A stretch of DNA of 64,000 bases from Polaribacter marinaquae (GTDB taxonomy: Bacteria > Bacteroidota > Bacteroidia > Flavobacteriales > Flavobacteriaceae), in the NCBI RefSeq assembly GCF_038019025.1, contig NZ_CP150496.1:2310001-2374000 (forward strand). The letters are read 5' to 3'. This document shows, in pieces, positions 2,056 to 44,233 of the stretch. Below the pieces are notes generated by a model that made no database searches, had not been told where the DNA came from, and saw nothing but the letters and a program-made list of their open reading frames with translations. Positions within the stretch are counted from its first letter, which is position 1. Each line of letters starts with the position of its first letter. A program made the position numbers and the translations under genes.

Positions 2056-2754
2056 TTATTTATCTGCTTCTAGTAATACAAATTTATAACCAACTCCTTT
2101 TACAGTTTTAAAATGGTCGTCTCCTATTTTTTCTCTTAATTTTCTAATATGTACGTCTATTGTTCTACCACCAACTACAACTTCATTACCCCAAACGGTA
2201 TCTAAAATTACTTCTCTTTTAAAAACTTTACCTGGTTTAGAAGTTAGTAAAGAGAATAGCTCAAACTCTTTTCTAGGTAATAAAATCTTTTTACCAGCTT
2301 TATAAACTACATATTCTTCTCTATCAATAACTATATCGCCAATTTTAAAAGTCTCTTCGCTTTCTTTTTCAGATTTTAATCTTCTTAAAAGAGATTTCAC
2401 CTTACTAACCAATACTTTGGGTTTAATAGGTTTTGTAATATAATCATCTGCGCCAGCTTCAAAACCTGCTACTTGAGAATAATCTTCTCCTCTTGCAGTT
2501 AAAAATGAGATGATAACATTTTCTAGCGAATTAATTTTTCTGATTTTTTCACAAGCCTCGATACCATCCATTTCTGGCATCATTATATCTAATAAAATTA
2601 AATGCGGTGTGTTTTTTTTAGCAGATTTTATTGCCTCTTGGCCATTATTTGCGGTAAAAACTTGATAGCCTTCATTTCTTAAATTATAACCAACTATTTC
2701 GATAATATCTGGTTCATCATCTACTAATAGTATTTTAATATCGCTTTTATTCAT
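2056..2754 (-). CDS. Response regulator, OmpR/PhoB family
   Basis: Two-domain regulator of 232 residues. The receiver domain has the acidic pocket (VDDEPD), phospho-acceptor Asp at about 56 (LLDIMMPEMDG), the conserved Thr in FLTARGE and Lys at about 108 (YITKPI). The C-terminal winged helix has the typical RTIDVHIRKLREKIG recognition region and KTVKGVGYKF hairpin. It is the first gene of a two-gene operon with the downstream kinase. On its own strand the box TACTTTTG (2808-2801) is a plausible -7 element about 45 bp before the ATG. The pair diverges from a T9SS cargo gene, a possible target. Confidence 0.88.
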   Translation of the reverse strand: MNKSDIKILLVDDEPDIIEIVGYNLRNEGYQVFTANNGQEAIKSAKKNTPHLILLDIMMPEMDGIEACEKIRKINSLENVIISFLTARGEDYSQVAGFEAGADDYITKPIKPKVLVSKVKSLLRRLKSEKESEETFKIGDIVIDREEYVVYKAGKKILLPRKEFELFSLLTSKPGKVFKREVILDTVWGNEVVVGGRTIDVHIRKLREKIGDDHFKTVKGVGYKFVLLEADK

Positions 2755-6063: not shown

Positions 6064-7932
6064 TTAATCTTCTAATTTCATAGAAAGTTCTAACCAACGC
6101 TCTTCTTTTGCTTCTAAATTGTCTATAATTTCTTGTAATTCTTCAGATTTTTTTGGAATATCTTCTGTAGCAATTTCTACGTTTAAAAATTGTTTTTCAA
6201 TTGTTTCTTTTCTTTTCTGAAGTCTTTCTATTTCACTTTCTAAAGCGCCAAACTCTCTTTTTTCATCAAAGCTTAAAGCAGATTTTGTATTTTTTTTAGT
6301 TGCTTTTTTTTCTTCTTTTTTAATTGTTGTTTTTTCTGAATTGTCTTTAGAAAGAGAACTATCGTAAGCTCTAAAATCTGAGTAGTTACCTGGAAAATTT
6401 TCTACAACACCTTCACCTCTAAAAACAAATAATGAATCTACTATTTTATCCATGAAATATCTGTCGTGAGAAACCACTAAAAGGTTTCCTGGATAATCTA
6501 AAAGAAAGTTTTCTAAAACATTTAAAGTAACAACATCTAAATCGTTGGTAGGCTCATCTAAGATTAAAAAGTTAGGATTCTGAATTAAAACTGCACATAA
6601 ATACAAACGTTTTTGTTCTCCACCAGATAGTTTTTCTACAAAGTCATATTGTTTCTTCTTGTCAAACAAAAATCTTTCTAATAATTGCGATGCAGAAATT
6701 CTTCTTCCTTTAGCTAACGGAATTTCTTCACCAAATTCTTTTACAACTTCTATTACTTTTTGTCCTTCTTTAATTTGAATACCAGCTTGTGTGTAGTAGC
6801 CAAATTTTACAGTTTCACCTAAAACTACCTTACCACCATCTAAAGGTGCTTTTTCGGTGATAATATTTAAAAATGATGATTTTCCTGTTCCGTTTTTACC
6901 AATGATCCCTACTCTTTCGCCTCTTTTAAAAACATAATCAAAACCATCTAAAATCTTTTTTTCTCCCCAAGATTTATGCACTTTATGTAGTTCTAGAATT
7001 TTACTTCCCAAACGTTCCATATTAATTTCTAATTGTACTTGGTGGTCTTTTCTACGTTGATGTGCTTTTTCTTTAATTGCGAAAAAATCATCTGTTCTAG
7101 ATTTCGATTTTGTAGTTCTAGCTTTTGGTTGCTTGCGCATCCAATCTAATTCTTTTTTAAATAAACTTTTAGCTTTGCTTAAGTTTGTCGCTTCTAAAGC
7201 TAATCGTTCTTCTTTATTTTGAAGGTAATAAGAGTAGTTACCTTTGTATTTGTAAATTTTACCTTCGTCTAACTCTAAAATTTCGTTACACACGCGTTCT
7301 AAAAAGTAACGGTCATGCGTAACCATAAAAAGTGTTATTTTCTCTTTAGCAAAAAAAGCTTCTAACCATTCTATCATTTCTAGATCTAAATGGTTTGTTG
7401 GTTCGTCTAAAATTAGTAAATCTGGTTTATTAATTAAAACGATAGCAAGAGATAAACGTTTTCTTTGTCCACCAGACAAAGCACCAACTTTTAAAGATAA
7501 ATCGTCTAATTTTAATTTAGATAATATTTGCTTGTATTGTGTTTCAAAATCCCAAGCATTAAACTGTTCCATTTGCTCAAAAGCAGCTTGGTAAGTGTCT
7601 GTGTCGTCTAAGTTTTTTAACGCTTTTTCATATTGATTTACAATAGATAGAATTTTATTATCAGTTGCAAAGATTGTTTCTTCGATTGTTAAATCAGGAT
7701 TGATATCATCTTTTTGTGCTAAATAAGCAATAGAAATTCCTTTTCTGCTAACTACTTGCCCAGAGTCGGGTACATCTAAACCTGCAATAATATTTAATAT
7801 TGATGTTTTACCGCTTCCGTTTTTTGCAACAAAAGCTACTTTTTGATCTTTATTAATACCAAAAGAGATGTCGTCGAATAAAATGCGTTCTCCGTAAGAT
7901 TTAGAAATGTTTTCTACTGATAAATAATTCAC
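6064..7932 (-). CDS. ABC-F family ATPase, Uup-like
   Basis: Soluble protein of 622 residues with two ABC ATPase domains and no membrane segments. Walker A motifs are KNGSGKTS and KNGTGKSS; signature motifs are LSGGQRKR and LSGGEQKR; Walker B is LLILDEPTNHLD and FLILDEPTNDLD. A charged linker joins the domains, and a Lys/Glu-rich coiled coil follows residue 520, as in Uup. ABC-F proteins bind the ribosomal E site or act in DNA and ribosome maintenance. I chose GTG at 7932 (NYLSVENIS, the normal family start) over an upstream TTG at 7968, which lies inside a terminator-like hairpin. The gene has an unusual leader (see 7946-8045). Confidence 0.88.
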   Translation of the reverse strand: MNYLSVENISKSYGERILFDDISFGINKDQKVAFVAKNGSGKTSILNIIAGLDVPDSGQVVSRKGISIAYLAQKDDINPDLTIEETIFATDNKILSIVNQYEKALKNLDDTDTYQAAFEQMEQFNAWDFETQYKQILSKLKLDDLSLKVGALSGGQRKRLSLAIVLINKPDLLILDEPTNHLDLEMIEWLEAFFAKEKITLFMVTHDRYFLERVCNEILELDEGKIYKYKGNYSYYLQNKEERLALEATNLSKAKSLFKKELDWMRKQPKARTTKSKSRTDDFFAIKEKAHQRRKDHQVQLEINMERLGSKILELHKVHKSWGEKKILDGFDYVFKRGERVGIIGKNGTGKSSFLNIITEKAPLDGGKVVLGETVKFGYYTQAGIQIKEGQKVIEVVKEFGEEIPLAKGRRISASQLLERFLFDKKKQYDFVEKLSGGEQKRLYLCAVLIQNPNFLILDEPTNDLDVVTLNVLENFLLDYPGNLLVVSHDRYFMDKIVDSLFVFRGEGVVENFPGNYSDFRAYDSSLSKDNSEKTTIKKEEKKATKKNTKSALSFDEKREFGALESEIERLQKRKETIEKQFLNVEIATEDIPKKSEELQEIIDNLEAKEERWLELSMKLED

Positions 7933-7945
7933 TACTTGTATTTTT

Positions 7946-7993
7946 TTACAAAGAAACAAAAAACCCAAGCAAAGGCTTGGGTTTTTGAGTCAT
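7946..7993 (-). CDS. Possible 15-codon leader peptide before the ABC-F gene
   Basis: ATG at 7993 opens a short frame reading MTQKPKPLLGFFVSL, with TAA at 7948-7946, 13 bp before the ABC-F GTG. It runs straight through the terminator-like hairpin at 7959-7986, so a translating ribosome would cover or melt the stem. This is the layout of antibiotic-responsive attenuators before some ABC-F genes. It is short and could be chance; expression is inferred. Confidence 0.3.
   Translation of the reverse strand: MTQKPKPLLGFFVSL
7959..7986 (-). terminator. Terminator or attenuator hairpin in the ABC-F leader
   Basis: Perfect 12-bp stem whose core is CCCAAGC / GCTTGGG with flanking A and T runs. Read on the minus strand it ends in TTTTTTG; read on the plus strand it ends in TTTTTG. 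It ends only 27 bp before the ABC-F GTG, so on the minus strand it would stop transcripts just before that gene unless bypassed. Confidence 0.6.
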
Positions 7994-8040
7994 TTAATTT
8001 TAGGGGTCGCATTAGGGGTGCTAATTAAATGACTTTTATA
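7959..8040 (-). ncRNA. Candidate structured leader or small RNA
   Basis: A predicted minus-strand transcript of about 80 nt from the promoter at 8045-8075 to the terminator at 7959-7986. It contains a perfect 12-bp stem (8034-8023 with 7999-7988, AGTCATTTAATT / AATTAAATGACT) closing a 23-nt loop. The loop holds ACCCCTAA twice, 12 nt apart (8019-8012 and 8007-8000). It could be a free small RNA or the attenuator leader of the ABC-F mRNA. No known RNA family was recognised. Confidence 0.35.
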
Positions 8041-8044
8041 CTTG

Positions 8045-8075
8045 TAAAAATAGTAGTTAAGTACATACTTGTCAA
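8045..8075 (-). promoter_or_regulatory. Predicted promoter reading into the ABC-F leader
   Basis: TTG at 8075-8073, a 20-bp spacer, then TATTTTTA at 8052-8045 (TAnnTTTG with the last G changed). The spacing is identical to the promoter at 13411-13441, and both -33 boxes abut the same palindrome. Confidence 0.45.
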
Positions 8076-8139
8076 TCCCTGAATTCAGTATATTTTCACT
8101 ATCCCTGAATTCAGGGTTTTATATCCCTGAATTCAGTAT
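8075..8139. repeat. Three copies of a GAATTC-centred palindrome, cluster 1
   Basis: Copies at 8075-8090, 8101-8118 and 8123-8139 all begin ATCCCTGAATTCAG. The middle copy has the full CCCTGAATTCAGGG dyad; the outer two have a degenerate right arm (CAGTA). Centres are 26 and 22 bp apart. They lie between the 3' end of the 1700-residue gene and the ABC-F leader promoter, at about -44, -70 and -92 from its predicted start. Confidence 0.8.
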
Positions 8140-8201
8140 GTCAATAAATTTAAATTATTGTCTAATAGTGTTTTAATTTTTATTTAGTATGCTGGTTTAA
8201 A

Positions 8202-11200
8202 TTATATTTTAATAAACTTTTTAATTAACTTCTCTTCACCGTCGCTTATTTCTAGCAAATACATACCAATTTTTAAATTAGAAACGTCTATTGAGTTGTT
8301 TTGTAATTTGCCTGATTTTATTGTTTGCCCGATAGAATTGATAATTTTATACGAATTAACAGTGTTAGTAGATAACTGCACATTTAATAATGTCTTTACT
8401 GGACTTGGATAAATCTTAAACGATCCGTCTGTAGTGTTAAAGAAATTATCATTATTTACCATGCTAATGTTGTTAGAGGCTGCAGTATTGTTTAAACTTA
8501 CATTGTCTATGGCAACATCTGCTTGCCATGTATTACCGGTAACTCTATTAAATCTTAACTGAATATTACTACCTAAGTATGCCGATAAATCTACACTAGC
8601 GCTTAACCATTGGTTTCCTTTATTACCAGATTCTGTCCAAATACTCGACCAAGAAGCTCCGTTGTCATTACTAATTTCTACATCTAAAGTTCCCGTGTTT
8701 GTTGCGCCATACATGTGATAATTAAAATTAAACGAAGCTGCAGATAAACTAGATAAATCAAAACAAGGTGAAGTTAATATAGCTTGTTTTGTTGGGTAGC
8801 CGGTGTTGTTACCAGAAGCTTCAACAAATAAATACGAATTACCTTCTGTTGCAGAAGAAGGACCTGTACTGTTAGACGGTGTTCCGTTCGCATCAACAAT
8901 CCAATTTAAATCATCATTTGAATTTTGAGACCAACTACCAATGTTTCCTTCAAAACCTTCGTTGTAAGGAAAAGAAGTTACTTCTGCAGTACAACCATTA
9001 TTATTGCTGTTTCCGCTAGATAATTCGATGTTGTCTAATGCGATGTCTGCTTGCCAAGTACTGCCTGTAATTCTATTAAACCTTAATTGAATACTAGATC
9101 CTGTAAATGCATTTAAATTAATATTAGCAGACAACCATTGGTTACCCTTGTTCCCAGATTCACTCCAAATGTTCGTCCAATTTGTTCCATTATCTGTACT
9201 AATTTCTAAGGCTATTGTACCCATATCTGCAGCACCATACATATGATAATTAAAACTGAAGTTTGCAGATGTTTCATTAGTCAAATCAAAACAAGGTGTG
9301 TTTAAAATAGCTTGTTTGTTTGGGTAACCTGTTCCGTCTCCAGATGCTTCTACAAATATATATGAGTTTCCGTTTGTTGCAGAAGAAGGTCCTGTACTCC
9401 CAGAAGGCGTTCCGTTAGAATTAATAGACCAGTCAATATCATCCGAAGAAGATTGAGACCATGCGCCTAAATTTCCTTCAAAACTTTCTGTATAAGGAAA
9501 AGTTGATACTCCGTTTACACAATCATTAGTACTTATTGTATTTACATTTATTGTTCTAGAAACTTGTGCCGCTGCATTTCCTGCATTGTCACTTACATTA
9601 TAATTTTTAATATATGTTCCTGCTGTATTTGTGTCTACATTACCAGTAATAATTATGTTAGATGTTAAATTACCGTCTACATTATCTGTTGCTGTTGCAC
9701 CTTGTTCAGAATAGGTGTCGCCAACGTTTAAGTCTAAAGTTGATGCGCCGTTTAATGTTATTATTGGTGCTATTGTATCTGCGGATGCTGCTTGAATATT
9801 TACAGTATAATCTTCTACTTCTCCGTAAGAAAAACTTTGACAAGATGTAGGAATAGCATTGTAACTCATAGAAACTCTCATTCTTGTTGAAGTTTCTAGT
9901 GCTGATGACGGAACAGTAAATGAAGCTGAAACTGTTGCGTTTTGATTTGGTGCAACTGATAAAACTTGTTCATTAGCATCTGTAAAATCTCCATCTTTGT
10001 TAAAATCAATCCAAACTGCATAACCTTCGTTGTATTTGGTTCCTGTCCATGTTGGTGTAACAGTTACAGTATAATTATCACCTTTTATTAAGTTCGTTGA
10101 TATGCTAGTAAAATCTGAATAAAACTGAGCGCCTGAATTATTATTGATGGAACCAAGTTGTACGTTACTTATAAATTCATCATTAACATTAGAACTTTGA
10201 GATGCACAATAATTAATAGGAGTAACATCTGTTGTAACAGTTAAAGTATTACTTGCGGTAGAAATATTACCGGCATCATCTTTTGCTATTACAGAAAACG
10301 AATATGATGTGTTTGAGGTTAATCCGTTTACGGTAAAACTAGTATTTGCGGTGTTTCCAACAACTGTACTTCCGTTTAAAACATCGTAAGAAGTTACTGC
10401 AACATTATCTGTAGAAGCTGTCCAACTTAAATTTACAGATGTATCAGTTTTGTTGTTTGAAACTAACGCTGTCGGAGCAGTAGGAGCAGTTGTGTCTGGT
10501 GCTAATGTTGTTGCGTTTACGGTGATGCTTTTAACAGAACTATTGCCTGCACTATCTTTTGCAATAACGTAAAAGTTATAGTTGGTATTGGCGCTTAGGC
10601 TTGTTGCTGTATAACTTGTGTTTGTAACAGTTGTTAGTAAGTTGCCATTTCTATAGATATCATAATTAGTAACGCCAACATTGTCTGTAGATGAGCTCCA
10701 AGAAAGTTGAATAGAGTTTTCTGTAATATTGTTAGTAATTAAGTTGGTTGGAGTGGTAGGTGCTTCTGTGTCAGGTGCTGATGATGAGGTAAATGTACCT
10801 GTAAATACACCTCTACCGTATGTAGAAGCTATAATTTTATTATTTGTATTATCGCCAGAAACATTCCAATAATCTAAAGAAGTTACACTAACATCACTCA
10901 TGCCGTTATATGATTGAGACCAATTAGGGTTTGTATCATTAAAGTTTTCTGTAGACCAAACACCTAATTGAGTAGCAATAATTGCTTCGTTTGGTGCTAA
11001 AGGATTCAATAAAAAGTCTCTTACCGGGATATTTGGAAGATTTCCTTCTTTGCTTGACCAAGTGCTACCTGCATTAGAAGAATACCAAATGCTAGTAACG
11101 CCGTAATTATGTATTGTTACAATTAAATCGTTAGCAGTTTCTCCAAGTCTAATAGAAGAGATTGCACCAACAAAAGGATTATTAACTGTTGTAAATGTTG

Positions 11201-13304
11201 CAGAATTATTGGTAACATTTGTTAATTTAACCAATCCGCCGTTAGATAAACCAACATACCAAGCATTGTTTTCGAAAGGGGAGGCTCTAAACGCTGTTGG
11301 ACTAGAAGTTAACGCAGCATTTGTTAATGATCCTTTACTGTTAGAAGCAACATTTATACTTAATATAGAATTACTACTTGTGGTAGATTGATTTGATAAT
11401 AATCTATTTGCATTACTATCATAATCCATCGGGTTTACGAAATCACCAGTACTTTGATCACTCGACAAAGTTGTTGCTCCTCCATCAATCCTTCCTTGGC
11501 CATTCCATGGTAAATTAAATCTATAAATTACATTAAAAACATACGTTGCAATCATGTATTGCCCATCTTTATCTACAAAAGTGTAAAAACCATCTCCGTC
11601 GCTTAAATCTTCAGAAGAATTTATTCCGTTTGCTGTATTTGCGTCTCTAAAAGCTTGTGTACCGTTGTCTTGCGCACCAGCCGAAAAAATTCCATTTAAA
11701 TCTCCAACACCATCTGGTCCAATACTTGCTTTTACAAATTGTGTAACATTGTAGTTGTTGTTTCTTGAGTTAATTGAATTACCCGAGTTGCCAGAATAAT
11801 AAATACCACCATCATTACCAAACAAAACTTTAGAAGCATCATTATTACCAAAAGCAATTGAGTGTTGATCTGCATGTACATTATTTGGTTGTCCAAAGCC
11901 ACCATACCAGTGTGATAATTGAGACCAAGAACTACCTCCGTTTGTAGATTTAAATAAATCGATTCCACCAACGTATATAATATTATCATTTGCAGGATCA
12001 GCTTCGATTACTAAATCGTAAAATGCTTGACCTCTTGTAAAATCATTTGCAGAAATGCCTGTATCTGCATCATTTGGCAGAGCTTTAGAAGTAATTGAGC
12101 TAAAACTATTTGTTGTTTCGTAAATATGAACAGGAGAGTTAACACCTTGAGTTAAAGCATAAATTTTATTTCCGTTTGTTGCTGATGGTTCTAGTTCTAC
12201 TCTATTAGAATCTGTCAAAGGAGAAGCATTTGCCTCTGTCCAAGTAGATCCGTTTGTAGAGCTGTAAACTCGACCGCCACCTTCGCCAAGAGCAGAACCA
12301 ATGGTTCCCATCCAAAGTTTATTATCTGCACCAACTTCTAAATCATTAGGAATGTAATAATAAGTAGAACCACCAAAAGAGTAAGATAGGTTTGACGATT
12401 CTATTCTACTCCAAGAACTACCATTATTTGTAGATCTATAAATACCAGCAGATTGTAAACCCAACCAATTTTTCGGACTTGAAGAATCTCCGTAAACATG
12501 AGCTCCGACGGCAACAAAAAGTTCTGTAGAGTTTCCGTTATCCCAGGCTAAAACATCGTTTACGTAATAAATACCTTTTAAAAATAAATTAGAAGCGTTG
12601 TAATCAAAAGAATCTGGTCCGGCGGCAGGAATTGTGACTGCAGACCAATTATTACCACCATCAGTAGTAACATAAACACCGTTACCAACAACATCTCCTG
12701 CGGTATATTGTTCTCCTGTACCTACATACCATCTATTAGAATTTCTAGGATCTACAGTAATGGAGGTTACAGAAAGGTTTCCTGGTACATTTTGCACTCT
12801 GCTCCATTGAGAATTTGCATTTGTAATGTTTGTATTTTTCCATAATCCACCAGAAACACCACCTGCATAAACGGTGTTGTTAGAAGTATCATTTGGGTCG
12901 AACATAATAACTCTTGTTCTACCACCAACGTTATTTGGGCCTCTTTCTTCCCAAGCATTAGAAGTGTTTCCTGGGGTTTTTCTAGAAACTCTTTTTTGCA
13001 TTATCTTTTTTCTAAGCTCATTTAACTCACCATCATCTAATTTTCCTGTTTCAGGGTTTATGGTAAGTTCCCACATCTGCTCGAAATACCTGTTAGGAGG
13101 CAGTCCGTTTTGTTTCCTTTTCTTTTTATCCCAAGTTAATGTTTCTTTATATGGGCTGTTTTTAATAAAGTTTTCTAATTTTTTTCTTTTAGATAATAGT
13201 TCTTCTTTCTCTTTCTTTTTGATAATTGTTTTTGATAAAAAAAAGGAGAACATTAAAATAGCTATTGAGCTAAATAATAACTTAAGGTAAGTGTTTTTTT
13301 TCAT
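8202..13304 (-). CDS. Giant T9SS-secreted BNR/FN3/MAM-type protein
   Basis: Secreted protein of 1700 residues. An N-terminal hydrophobic signal segment (about 8-27) precedes a basic linker. Residues about 120-840 form a sortilin/BNR-like propeller with repeated STNGGSSWS-type Asp-box motifs, often annotated as glycosyl hydrolase. Then come two fibronectin III domains (about 843-931 and 935-1023), a GEVED domain (about 1031-1168, WIDFNKDGDF), a DUF5011/HYR Ig-like domain (about 1178-1253), two near-identical MAM-like domains (about 1260-1428 and 1439-1599), and a T9SS sorting domain (about 1623-1700, FKIYPSPVKTLLNV, LKIGMYLLEI). It is probably a surface adhesin or polymer-binding protein. Palindrome arrays flank it; the upstream array abuts its promoter. 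No terminator was seen. Confidence 0.85.
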   Translation of the reverse strand: MKKNTYLKLLFSSIAILMFSFFLSKTIIKKKEKEELLSKRKKLENFIKNSPYKETLTWDKKKRKQNGLPPNRYFEQMWELTINPETGKLDDGELNELRKKIMQKRVSRKTPGNTSNAWEERGPNNVGGRTRVIMFDPNDTSNNTVYAGGVSGGLWKNTNITNANSQWSRVQNVPGNLSVTSITVDPRNSNRWYVGTGEQYTAGDVVGNGVYVTTDGGNNWSAVTIPAAGPDSFDYNASNLFLKGIYYVNDVLAWDNGNSTELFVAVGAHVYGDSSSPKNWLGLQSAGIYRSTNNGSSWSRIESSNLSYSFGGSTYYYIPNDLEVGADNKLWMGTIGSALGEGGGRVYSSTNGSTWTEANASPLTDSNRVELEPSATNGNKIYALTQGVNSPVHIYETTNSFSSITSKALPNDADTGISANDFTRGQAFYDLVIEADPANDNIIYVGGIDLFKSTNGGSSWSQLSHWYGGFGQPNNVHADQHSIAFGNNDASKVLFGNDGGIYYSGNSGNSINSRNNNYNVTQFVKASIGPDGVGDLNGIFSAGAQDNGTQAFRDANTANGINSSEDLSDGDGFYTFVDKDGQYMIATYVFNVIYRFNLPWNGQGRIDGGATTLSSDQSTGDFVNPMDYDSNANRLLSNQSTTSSNSILSINVASNSKGSLTNAALTSSPTAFRASPFENNAWYVGLSNGGLVKLTNVTNNSATFTTVNNPFVGAISSIRLGETANDLIVTIHNYGVTSIWYSSNAGSTWSSKEGNLPNIPVRDFLLNPLAPNEAIIATQLGVWSTENFNDTNPNWSQSYNGMSDVSVTSLDYWNVSGDNTNNKIIASTYGRGVFTGTFTSSSAPDTEAPTTPTNLITNNITENSIQLSWSSSTDNVGVTNYDIYRNGNLLTTVTNTSYTATSLSANTNYNFYVIAKDSAGNSSVKSITVNATTLAPDTTAPTAPTALVSNNKTDTSVNLSWTASTDNVAVTSYDVLNGSTVVGNTANTSFTVNGLTSNTSYSFSVIAKDDAGNISTASNTLTVTTDVTPINYCASQSSNVNDEFISNVQLGSINNNSGAQFYSDFTSISTNLIKGDNYTVTVTPTWTGTKYNEGYAVWIDFNKDGDFTDANEQVLSVAPNQNATVSASFTVPSSALETSTRMRVSMSYNAIPTSCQSFSYGEVEDYTVNIQAASADTIAPIITLNGASTLDLNVGDTYSEQGATATDNVDGNLTSNIIITGNVDTNTAGTYIKNYNVSDNAGNAAAQVSRTINVNTISTNDCVNGVSTFPYTESFEGNLGAWSQSSSDDIDWSINSNGTPSGSTGPSSATNGNSYIFVEASGDGTGYPNKQAILNTPCFDLTNETSANFSFNYHMYGAADMGTIALEISTDNGTNWTNIWSESGNKGNQWLSANINLNAFTGSSIQLRFNRITGSTWQADIALDNIELSSGNSNNNGCTAEVTSFPYNEGFEGNIGSWSQNSNDDLNWIVDANGTPSNSTGPSSATEGNSYLFVEASGNNTGYPTKQAILTSPCFDLSSLSAASFNFNYHMYGATNTGTLDVEISNDNGASWSSIWTESGNKGNQWLSASVDLSAYLGSNIQLRFNRVTGNTWQADVAIDNVSLNNTAASNNISMVNNDNFFNTTDGSFKIYPSPVKTLLNVQLSTNTVNSYKIINSIGQTIKSGKLQNNSIDVSNLKIGMYLLEISDGEEKLIKKFIKI

Positions 13305-13410
13305 GTGAATAAAATTTTTAAAAATTTGGGGATTGAATTAATTCGACAACATTATTATTTTTTGTATTAATAATTTATTAAAAAATCTTAATATATTATT
13401 AAATACGTAT

Positions 13411-13441
13411 CAAAAGTATTAATTTATTAAACATTGTGCAA
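13411..13441 (-). promoter_or_regulatory. Promoter of the giant T9SS gene
   Basis: TTG at 13441-13439, a 20-bp spacer, then TACTTTTG at 13418-13411, a full match to the Bacteroidota consensus. It predicts a start near 13406 and a 5' leader of about 100 nt. Confidence 0.65.
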
Positions 13442-13485
13442 TCCCTGAATTCAGGGTTTTTTACTATCCCTGAATTCAGGGATAG
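13441..13485. repeat. Two copies of the GAATTC-centred palindrome, cluster 2
   Basis: Copies at 13441-13458 (ATCCCTGAATTCAGGGTT) and 13466-13483 (ATCCCTGAATTCAGGGAT, perfect; the dyad extends to 22 bp at 13464-13485). Centres are 25 bp apart, at about -44 and -69 from the predicted start of the giant T9SS gene, with the near copy abutting the -33 TTG. This is where an activator dimer would sit. Confidence 0.8.
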
Positions 13486-43908: not shown

Positions 43909-43930
43909 TCATATATAATACATTAAATTA

Positions 43931-43966
43931 AAAACCTCAAAACGTTTGTTTTGAGGTTTTTTTTTG
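43931..43966 (+). terminator. Rho-independent terminator after atpC
   Basis: 13-bp stem AAAACCTCAAAAC / GTTTTGAGGTTTT, 4-base loop, run of nine T. Confidence 0.88.
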
Positions 43967-44233
43967 GGGGAAATTTAAATTCAAATAATGCAATAACAAT
44001 TTTCCCACTTAGCGGTTAAAGTTTTTTCTTTCTTTTTGTAAATGTCTAACTATTTTTAAAATACTATTAGAGGTTAATTATCCTTTTAAATAAGGAAAAA
44101 CACCTTTTTTATTTTTTTGTTTTTAATATTACTTCCTTTGTTTATAAGGTGTTATTTTTTTATGTATGTTATATTTTTTTTCAATTTTATAAAAATTGTA
44201 TTTTGTGTACAATTAACTTAACTATTTTACATT
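43967..44233 (+). other. AT-rich intergenic region before the signalling operon
   Basis: Between the atpC terminator and the lipoprotein gene. It holds a CCTT/AAGG hairpin (44082-44095), and AACACCTT (44099-44106) that can pair with AAGGTGTT (44146-44153) followed by ATTTTTTT, a weak terminator-like structure. No reading frame. No exact promoter box; TTCCTTTG (44133-44140) is a near match. Confidence 0.4.

Follow-up and report, generated by a model that had tools for sequence, protein, structure and literature searches.

In the GacS/GacA-RsmX/Y/Z system a response regulator (RR) of the NarL family is associated with palindromes upstream of small RNA (sRNA) genes, whose products carry repeated single-stranded GGA motifs and are paired with the protein CsrA/RsmA. 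Among the Bacteroidota, the sections of PMC11697453 drawn on here describe the sRNAs FopS and GibS, together with RbpB, in Bacteroides thetaiotaomicron, with several copies (14 of FopS) and a possible transcriptional regulator. For flavobacteria, the sections of PMC9723704 drawn on here describe Rfp18 of Flavobacterium psychrophilum, an sRNA affecting secreted metalloproteases whose pairing region is its third stem-loop. Here we set beside these a 64,000-nt stretch of the Polaribacter marinaquae genome (the window; C1:2310001-2374000 of the 3,165,535-bp single-contig genome G000, with window coordinates used for the features inside it), in which two promoters are each preceded by copies of one palindrome. 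We consider it likely that these palindromes are the sites of a NarL/FixJ RR controlling a regulon that includes the RR itself, two predicted sRNAs, and surface and toxin-like proteins.

The likeness to Gac/Rsm, as judged from sequence, lies in a NarL-family RR, palindromes at predicted sRNA genes, repeated motifs predicted to be unpaired, and secreted or competition-type genes nearby. The differences are that the motif here is CCCC(C/U)AA in loop regions and not GGA, that the palindromes number two or three with rigid spacing, and that the RR appears to control itself, a type IX secretion system (T9SS) protein and lipoproteins directly. A search of the one genome at hand, that of P. marinaquae itself, gave no CsrA (PF02599), a family that a control search found in 3 of 14 genomes. 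With no CsrA found and a C-rich rather than a GGA motif, we regard the system as Gac/Rsm-like in layout and not as a member. FopS, in the sections of PMC11697453 cited, is alike in being a Bacteroidota sRNA that exists in several copies, with its 5' part single-stranded and a hairpin as terminator; the system found here differs in its C-rich motif and in promoter palindromes that can be tied to a named RR. Rfp18 is likewise flavobacterial, but its pairing region is in the third stem-loop and no regulator is named for it in the parts of PMC9723704 used. An Rfam search with the sRNAs, in a release whose inclusion of FopS was left unchecked, returned no sRNA family at the gathering threshold (one tRNA only).

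Genome-wide, CCCTGAATTCAG occurs at six places (1392996, 2045521, 2104382, two in the window, and 2703478/2703500) and its reversed control at none. When CCCTGAATTCAGGG is allowed up to two mismatches there are 13 sites, 12 of them at those same six places, against 1 for the control. The promoter pattern TTCAGGGATTG-N20-TAnnTTTG has four exact matches (1393049+, 2045553+, 2323411- and 2703533+) and one with a single mismatch (2318045-, the window's promoter at 8045), every one of them at a palindrome place. With up to three mismatches it has 16 matches against 6 in the control, so the weaker matches were not accepted as real; one of them, at 2286938 (two mismatches), sits in apparent coding sequence and was dropped. 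Five of the six CCCTGAATTCAG places therefore have one design, namely palindrome, ATTG, exactly 20 bp and TAnnTTTG. The genome search for the palindrome near promoter geometry that the initial annotation had proposed thus returned that geometry at five of six places rather than scattered copies. The spacing of the array is also repeated, with 22 bp from distal to middle and 26 bp from middle to proximal copy at loci L017 and L020 and at one window promoter, and two sites 25 bp apart at a lipoprotein promoter (L018) and at the other window promoter.

The two window promoters, one belonging to a predicted small RNA that we call sRNA-A and lying upstream of an ABC-F gene, the other to a giant T9SS gene, are built as follows.

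8077..8090, minus strand: proximal copy of the palindrome at the sRNA-A promoter, directly next to ATTG, two mismatches from CCCTGAATTCAGGG, centre at about -43.5
8103..8116, minus strand: middle copy at the sRNA-A promoter, an exact match placed 26 bp upstream of the proximal one, centre at about -69.5
8125..8138, minus strand: distal copy at the sRNA-A promoter, with two mismatches and 22 bp farther upstream than the middle one, centre at about -91.5
8073..8075, minus strand: -33 TTG of the sRNA-A promoter, preceded by A and then the palindrome
8045..8052, minus strand: -7 box of the sRNA-A promoter, TATTTTTA, its last base departing from the consensus TAnnTTTG
13443..13456, minus strand: proximal palindrome of the giant T9SS gene promoter, an exact copy
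13468..13481, minus strand: second palindrome of the giant T9SS gene promoter, exact, 25 bp upstream, with no third copy
13439..13441, minus strand: -33 TTG of the giant T9SS gene promoter, preceded by A and then the palindrome
13411..13418, minus strand: -7 box of the giant T9SS gene promoter, TACTTTTG, predicted transcription start near 13406

The distance from -33 to -7 is exactly 20 bp at both, and the coordinates bear out the original description of an identical palindrome, TTG, 20-bp spacer and -7 box at the two promoters, as well as its view that a conserved geometry in an activator-type position, and not a simple duplication, is involved. TAnnTTTG at -12 to -5 is the sigmaA box according to the portions of the F. 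psychrophilum transcription-start mapping drawn on here (PMC9723704), which gives predicted starts at 8040 and 13406, the same as those given before. In the window the palindrome has 7 matches at up to three mismatches where 0.73 are expected, a number that none of 100 shuffles reaches; two of the seven (22101 and 36948) are unrelated to the two promoters. The initial annotation had reported two palindromes per promoter; both exist, and the third copy at 8125-8138 had been overlooked. It had also placed its two sites on one DNA face. Steps of 26 and 25 bp correspond to about 2.5 helical turns, which puts sites on opposite faces, and about 2.4, so the two sites it noted do not share a face; the middle and distal sites do, the 22-bp step being about 2.1 turns.

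The candidate regulator stands behind the promoter at 2703533, where a 221-aa RR (P0002; G000 C1:2703583-2704245) begins 11 nt after the -7 box. Its Response_reg (73.9 bits) and GerE (64.3 bits) domains both score above cut-off, which makes it a NarL/FixJ (LuxR-type) protein, and residue D59 is invariant in nine aligned rows. Next in the operon come a lipoprotein gene and then a TPR-repeat kinase that scores 27.4 bits for HisKA_3 (cut-off 24) and 48.3 bits for HATPase_c; the RR presumably works with this kinase. The RR matches DesR (1.3e-22), VraR (1.2e-21) and NarL (4.8e-19) over most of its length and, like these and DevR, has receiver and GerE domains; it differs from them in having as its predicted site a 5-4-5 palindrome that varies between species of one genus.

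For comparison we used 97 genomes of the same genus, a sample of a larger group, in which the RR is found in 77 (E <=1e-50) and the ABC-F protein in 90 (E <=1e-150). The same promoter, at up to one mismatch, is present in 27 of the 97 (79 matches against 2 in the control); because the half-site in the search pattern is of the CCCTG type, this count passes over species whose sites differ. Behind 68 promoters the downstream classes recur, namely the RR, sRNA-A before ABC-F, the second predicted small RNA (sRNA-B), lipoproteins, the giant T9SS protein and small XRE proteins, with a subtilase at L098. Scanning named genomes with an RR alignment found 99 relatives, and the 80 loci listed fall in Polaribacter, Tenacibaculum, Lutibacter, Aureivirga, Urechidicola and other Flavobacteriaceae; the closest named RR among the matches listed is from a Polaribacter sp. 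(97% identity). For these 80 loci out of the 99, a regular expression picked up a kinase gene downstream of the RR at 61 and a lipoprotein gene at 66; more than 3 kb of downstream sequence is available at 68 of the 80. Of 110 distinct RR promoters, located from nothing but their -33 and -7 sequences, 108 have a spacer of 20 bp and 2 have one of 21 bp. Perfect 5-4-5 palindromes occur at -41 and at -63 from the TTG in 35 of the 110 each, against a mean of 0.9% elsewhere. The palindromes themselves change between species with the array kept; upstream of the RR in other species they read CCCTGAGCTCAGGG, CACTGAAAACAGTG, CACGGTTTTCCGTG, CACCATTTATGGTG, CCCCATTTATGGGG, CCCTATAAATAGGG, CCCCCTTTAGGGGG or ACGTATTTATACGT.

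This pattern bears on the suggestion that the palindromes belong to a mobile or REP-like (repetitive extragenic palindromic) family that landed near promoters by chance. It would suit the genomes G036, G050 and G056, each of which contains a number of promoter copies that are nearly identical, but the distance to the -33 and -7 boxes is fixed at five places with unrelated downstream genes, there are only 6 genomic places, and the sequence changes in concert with the RR; we hold such an origin to be extremely improbable.

Co-variation was followed in a paired table of 60 genomes with both RR and ABC-F upstream regions, mostly from the top of the RR list, of which 29 have a usable sRNA-A promoter by eye and 27 by rule. 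Half-sites of the RR and sRNA-A promoters differ by a mean distance of 0.145 within the 29 genomes and 0.362 between them, and the half-site distances correlate given the distance between RR receivers (partial Spearman 0.66; 0 of 5000 permutations). The 27 rule-picked genomes give 0.141 for the genome's own pair against 0.350 (0 of 10000 permutations). In G060 an altered -33 (ATAG) is common to the RR and sRNA-A promoters.

Individual RR residues were then related to individual bases, using the 45 of 110 RR/site rows with a perfect palindrome and a promoter score of >=13.4, and 183 variable columns. Residue 190 is the most informative column on the half-site class and on bases 2 and 3, and residue 193 is the best for base 5. 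Both lie in the predicted recognition helix (SHHTVESYRKKL), and residue 193 is presumably the counterpart of K188 of NarL, which contacts DNA. All 14 RRs with N190 have A at base 2; H190 occurs with CCCTG (12/13) or CCCTA (1), S190 with CCC-type sites (12/12) and R190 with ACGTA (3/3). D193 goes with A or T at base 5, never G (12/12), and the single K193 pairs with CCCCC; G015 (E193 with CCCCA) is an exception. We see in this tracking of bases by residues the strongest evidence that the RR itself would bind the sites. Since the palindrome changes jointly at the RR and sRNA promoters and follows residues 190 and 193, the regulator is very probably the RR. Another DNA-binding protein, a small XRE protein or an unlinked factor, might bind the palindromes instead, with the RR operon merely one of its targets. 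RR autoregulation is after all inferred, and XRE genes do lie behind the promoter in relatives (L082, L113 and L122), but only at these 3 of 68 promoters, and it would be hard to reconcile with residues 190 and 193 being the best of 183 RR columns for bases 2 and 3 and for base 5, respectively; we think another binder unlikely.

Several observations weigh against control by the RR through a fixed array, or against the tests that favor it. At the sixth CCCTGAATTCAG place (2104382, L019) the geometry is absent and the arrangement partial and disturbed; perhaps this is a disturbed member of the regulon. An extra palindrome peak at -52 (27/110), called spurious, is in our opinion a product of two adjacent similar palindromes, and the proximal site is rarely a perfect palindrome (7/110). 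Tenacibaculum-type loci keep the 20-bp spacer and have AGGGTTAACCCT-like palindromes in another register, so that the array geometry is a Polaribacter-side feature. The rule selecting the 27 genomes was written after the data had been seen. In only 13 of the 29 genomes does no other genome's RR promoter fit better, because many species share sites. The column test makes no correction for the tree, which all columns have in common; the best predictor is residue 200 for base 1 and residue 159 for base 4 (193 coming second there), with 190 first at neither; of the 32 rows with E193, 26 have G and 6 have A at base 5; and G086 has S190 with CCCTG. On the RNA side the motif counts near start codons, given below, belong here too. 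As an observation apart, the lone CCCTGAATTCAG of L019 (4880-5020) lies within a larger inverted repeat, upstream of an apparent small XRE gene.

From the sites, their geometry, the operon and the co-variation, all read from the sequence, we infer the binding, phosphorylation and activation steps and the transcription and action of the sRNAs. The phosphorylated RR would bind two or three palindromes, whose centres lie at about -43.5, -69.5 and -91.5, and, once bound, activate sigmaA-type promoters (ATTG-N20-TAnnTTTG), among them that of its own operon, which would amount to positive feedback. It would also switch on sRNA-A (upstream of ABC-F), sRNA-B (in the gap between a GH31 and a release-factor gene), the giant T9SS protein and a lipoprotein gene from a family of toxin-like character; its targets in relatives would also include small XRE proteins and a subtilase that is secreted. 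Once made, the sRNAs might act post-transcriptionally through unpaired CCCC(C/U)AA-type motifs, either by drawing off an RNA-binding protein as decoys or by annealing to G-rich sites in mRNA.

The region between the promoter at 8045 and the ABC-F gene reads as follows.

7958..8040, minus strand: sRNA-A, a predicted small RNA of about 83 nt, from sequence and fold prediction
8012..8018, minus strand: first of two CCCCUAA motifs in the sRNA-A loop region
8000..8006, minus strand: second of the two CCCCUAA motifs in the sRNA-A loop region
7988..8034, minus strand: closing stem of 12 bp (arms 7988-7999 and 8023-8034) with a C-rich loop
7958..7986, minus strand: intrinsic terminator in which sRNA-A ends, ahead of the ABC-F start
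7949..7956, minus strand: the ABC-F gene's own -7-like box, TTTCTTTG, also found in relatives with no recognisable sRNA-A
6064..7932, minus strand: ABC-F ATPase gene, GTG start at 7932 presumed, chosen by comparison; a neighbour and probably not a target

The predicted fold of sRNA-A has -25.7 kcal/mol (z -6.1). Of the earlier proposal that one regulator serves a surface protein and an ABC-F gene, the single regulator has gained support and a candidate in the RR. ABC-F as its target has gained none: a terminator (7958-7986) precedes the gene, the gene has a separate -7 box, and the sRNA cannot be recognised in many relatives. Regulation of ABC-F by the 8045 promoter was set aside on the last two of these grounds. 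The TTTCTTTG box is kept in relatives without a recognisable sRNA (e.g. G034, G037, G038 and G063), and in the approximately 500 bp upstream of ABC-F the sRNA-A promoter is unrecognisable by rule in 33 of the 60 genomes, a few of which (e.g. G014 and G016) do show it by eye. With the box, the terminator and the relatives without a recognisable sRNA taken together, the 8045 promoter is most likely that of an RNA gene in its own right. Attenuator leaders are known for antibiotic-responsive ABC-F genes, and the 8045 promoter could drive a 5' leader of this kind, the terminator of the short RNA lying about 25 nt before the ABC-F start and in the same direction. That arrangement is improbable in view of the minimum-energy fold (the sole fold examined), in which the terminator is formed, of the separate -7-like box and the 33 of 60 genomes just mentioned, and of G013, G021 and G036, where the sRNA lies about 100 bp farther upstream of ABC-F.

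The promoter at 1393049 precedes the predicted intergenic sRNA-B, with UUCCCCC and a terminator, between the GH31 gene and the release-factor gene on the opposite strand. Its fold has z -2.0 (7 of 200 shuffles as good), and the G013 copy z -4.4. Outside the terminator, a CCCC motif is present in sRNA-A in 27 of 29 genomes (mean 2.1 and maximum 7 in mononucleotide shuffles) and in sRNA-B in 7 of the 8 genomes examined, of which the G073 copy is possibly not genuine (shuffles mean 0.21, maximum 3). Loop length and flanks vary across species while the CCCC motif recurs (the sRNA-A alignment took 16 of the 29 sequences), and CCUCC replaces the C-rich motif in G001, G005 and G046. The giant gene and, in one relative (L082), the XRE gene have such a motif in their leaders as well.

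13326..13331, minus strand: CCCCAA motif in what is predicted to be the giant gene's 5' leader, apparently resembling the sRNA loops

Genome-wide, the C-rich motif is not enriched upstream of ATG (61 against 61 in the control), and the complementary G-rich motif TTRGGGG is not clearly enriched there (83 against 76), in counts where one motif preceding several ATGs was counted several times; no target class for the sRNAs was therefore found. C-rich staphylococcal sRNAs act by base pairing, and that the sRNAs here pair with UURGGGG sites in mRNA rather than act as protein decoys is a serious possibility, if short of an even chance. The recurrence across species of CCCC(C/U)AA in the loop region, and the CCUCC variants, would agree with pairing; the count of 83 against 76 does not, though decoy-type motifs fare no better (61 against 61). 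The flavobacterial group, moreover, mostly lacks Shine-Dalgarno pairing according to the sections of PMC9723704 drawn on here, which also counts against it. The CCCC motifs in the leaders of the giant and XRE genes, together with those in the further C-rich units described at the end, would fit a decoy. As a choice between decoy and base pairing, the sequences leave the odds about even.

What emerges is a conserved regulon, very probably controlled by the RR, with predicted sRNA outputs and what looks like a fast-moving DNA code. More tentatively, there may be a Csr/Rsm-like layer in Bacteroidota in which C-rich hairpin RNAs (sRNA-A, sRNA-B and the tandem units) titrate an RNA-binding protein through CCCC(C/U)AA loops, one branch being switched on by this two-component system together with surface and toxin-like genes, with a readable, fast-evolving recognition code and the sites of a genome shifting together. 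Full-text searches of a library of PubMed Central papers, which leaves out subscription papers and preprints, gave no paper that we recognised, from its entry or the opening of its abstract, as being on the motif, the regulon or flavobacterial C-rich sRNAs. An anonymous motif becomes a regulon that can be put to the test, its regulator, sensor and targets all named, in a phylum where few regulatory RNAs are known, and the finding points to C-rich loop RNAs and their prospective partner. The half-sites CCCTG, CACTG, CACGG, CACCA, CCCCA, CCCTA and ACGTA, with residues 190 and 193 tracking the bases, form a natural RR/site series, in which one can readily examine how the code of a transcription factor shifts and its regulon keeps pace.

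The protein-coding targets are headed by the giant gene of the window, whose domains, including a T9SS sorting tail, support the original view that a surface protein lies behind this promoter.

8202..13304, minus strand: giant T9SS surface protein of 1700 aa, with fn3, GEVED, Ig-like, MAM and Por_Secre_tail domains

The promoter at 2045553 precedes a lipoprotein gene with an SprT-like match (22.4 bits, below the 25.6 cut-off). This lipoprotein target (L018:5122-6586, plus strand) has an in-frame stop in its signal peptide here; comparable genes in relatives are uninterrupted. The N-termini of the lipoprotein targets are alike by eye (unaligned) and their C-terminal parts differ, which, with one Imm30-like neighbour below threshold, might suit polymorphic toxin lipoproteins. 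Of nine lipoprotein-type proteins scanned, two (L105 and L110) have GH19 above cut-off, three more have sub-threshold matches and four none. Below cut-off the lipoprotein targets give SprT-like (L018 and L089), Lipase_3-like (L084) and DUF3103-like (L128) matches. At L083:3214-3966 (plus strand) a lipoprotein-type gene behind such a promoter has Imm30-like similarity below cut-off, and the other small proteins scanned gave none. The combination of T9SS surface proteins and lipoproteins suggests functions in cell contact or competition. Promoters at L124-L128, L117, L083:2888 and L133 (G050 and others) feed lipoprotein-type genes whose leaders contain a GTTGGCAAC-, GTTGGTAGC- or GTTATGCC-like segment with sharp sequence divergence after it; the segment and divergence resemble a recombination junction (attC-like), a likeness that is unproven.

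Further C-rich units lie outside such promoters, in stretches picked by eye, mainly from motif hits, and so a biased sample. At L317:3120-3740 (minus strand; G000 C1:2155619-2156239) three non-coding units stand in tandem at intervals of about 235-240 nt; they have terminators and hairpin loops of the CCCCCUAA/UCCCUAA type, and look like another C-rich sRNA family. Two tandem CCCC units with a terminator (L316:1603-1720 and 2297-2400, plus strand) are located downstream of genes for small secreted proteins, in the leaders of which CCCCCAA is present as well, and there are further C-rich hairpins in L330 and L334. In the window itself, an intergenic CCCCCAA at 43915-43970 (minus strand) is followed by a strong hairpin and a T-run, making this a candidate short C-rich RNA.

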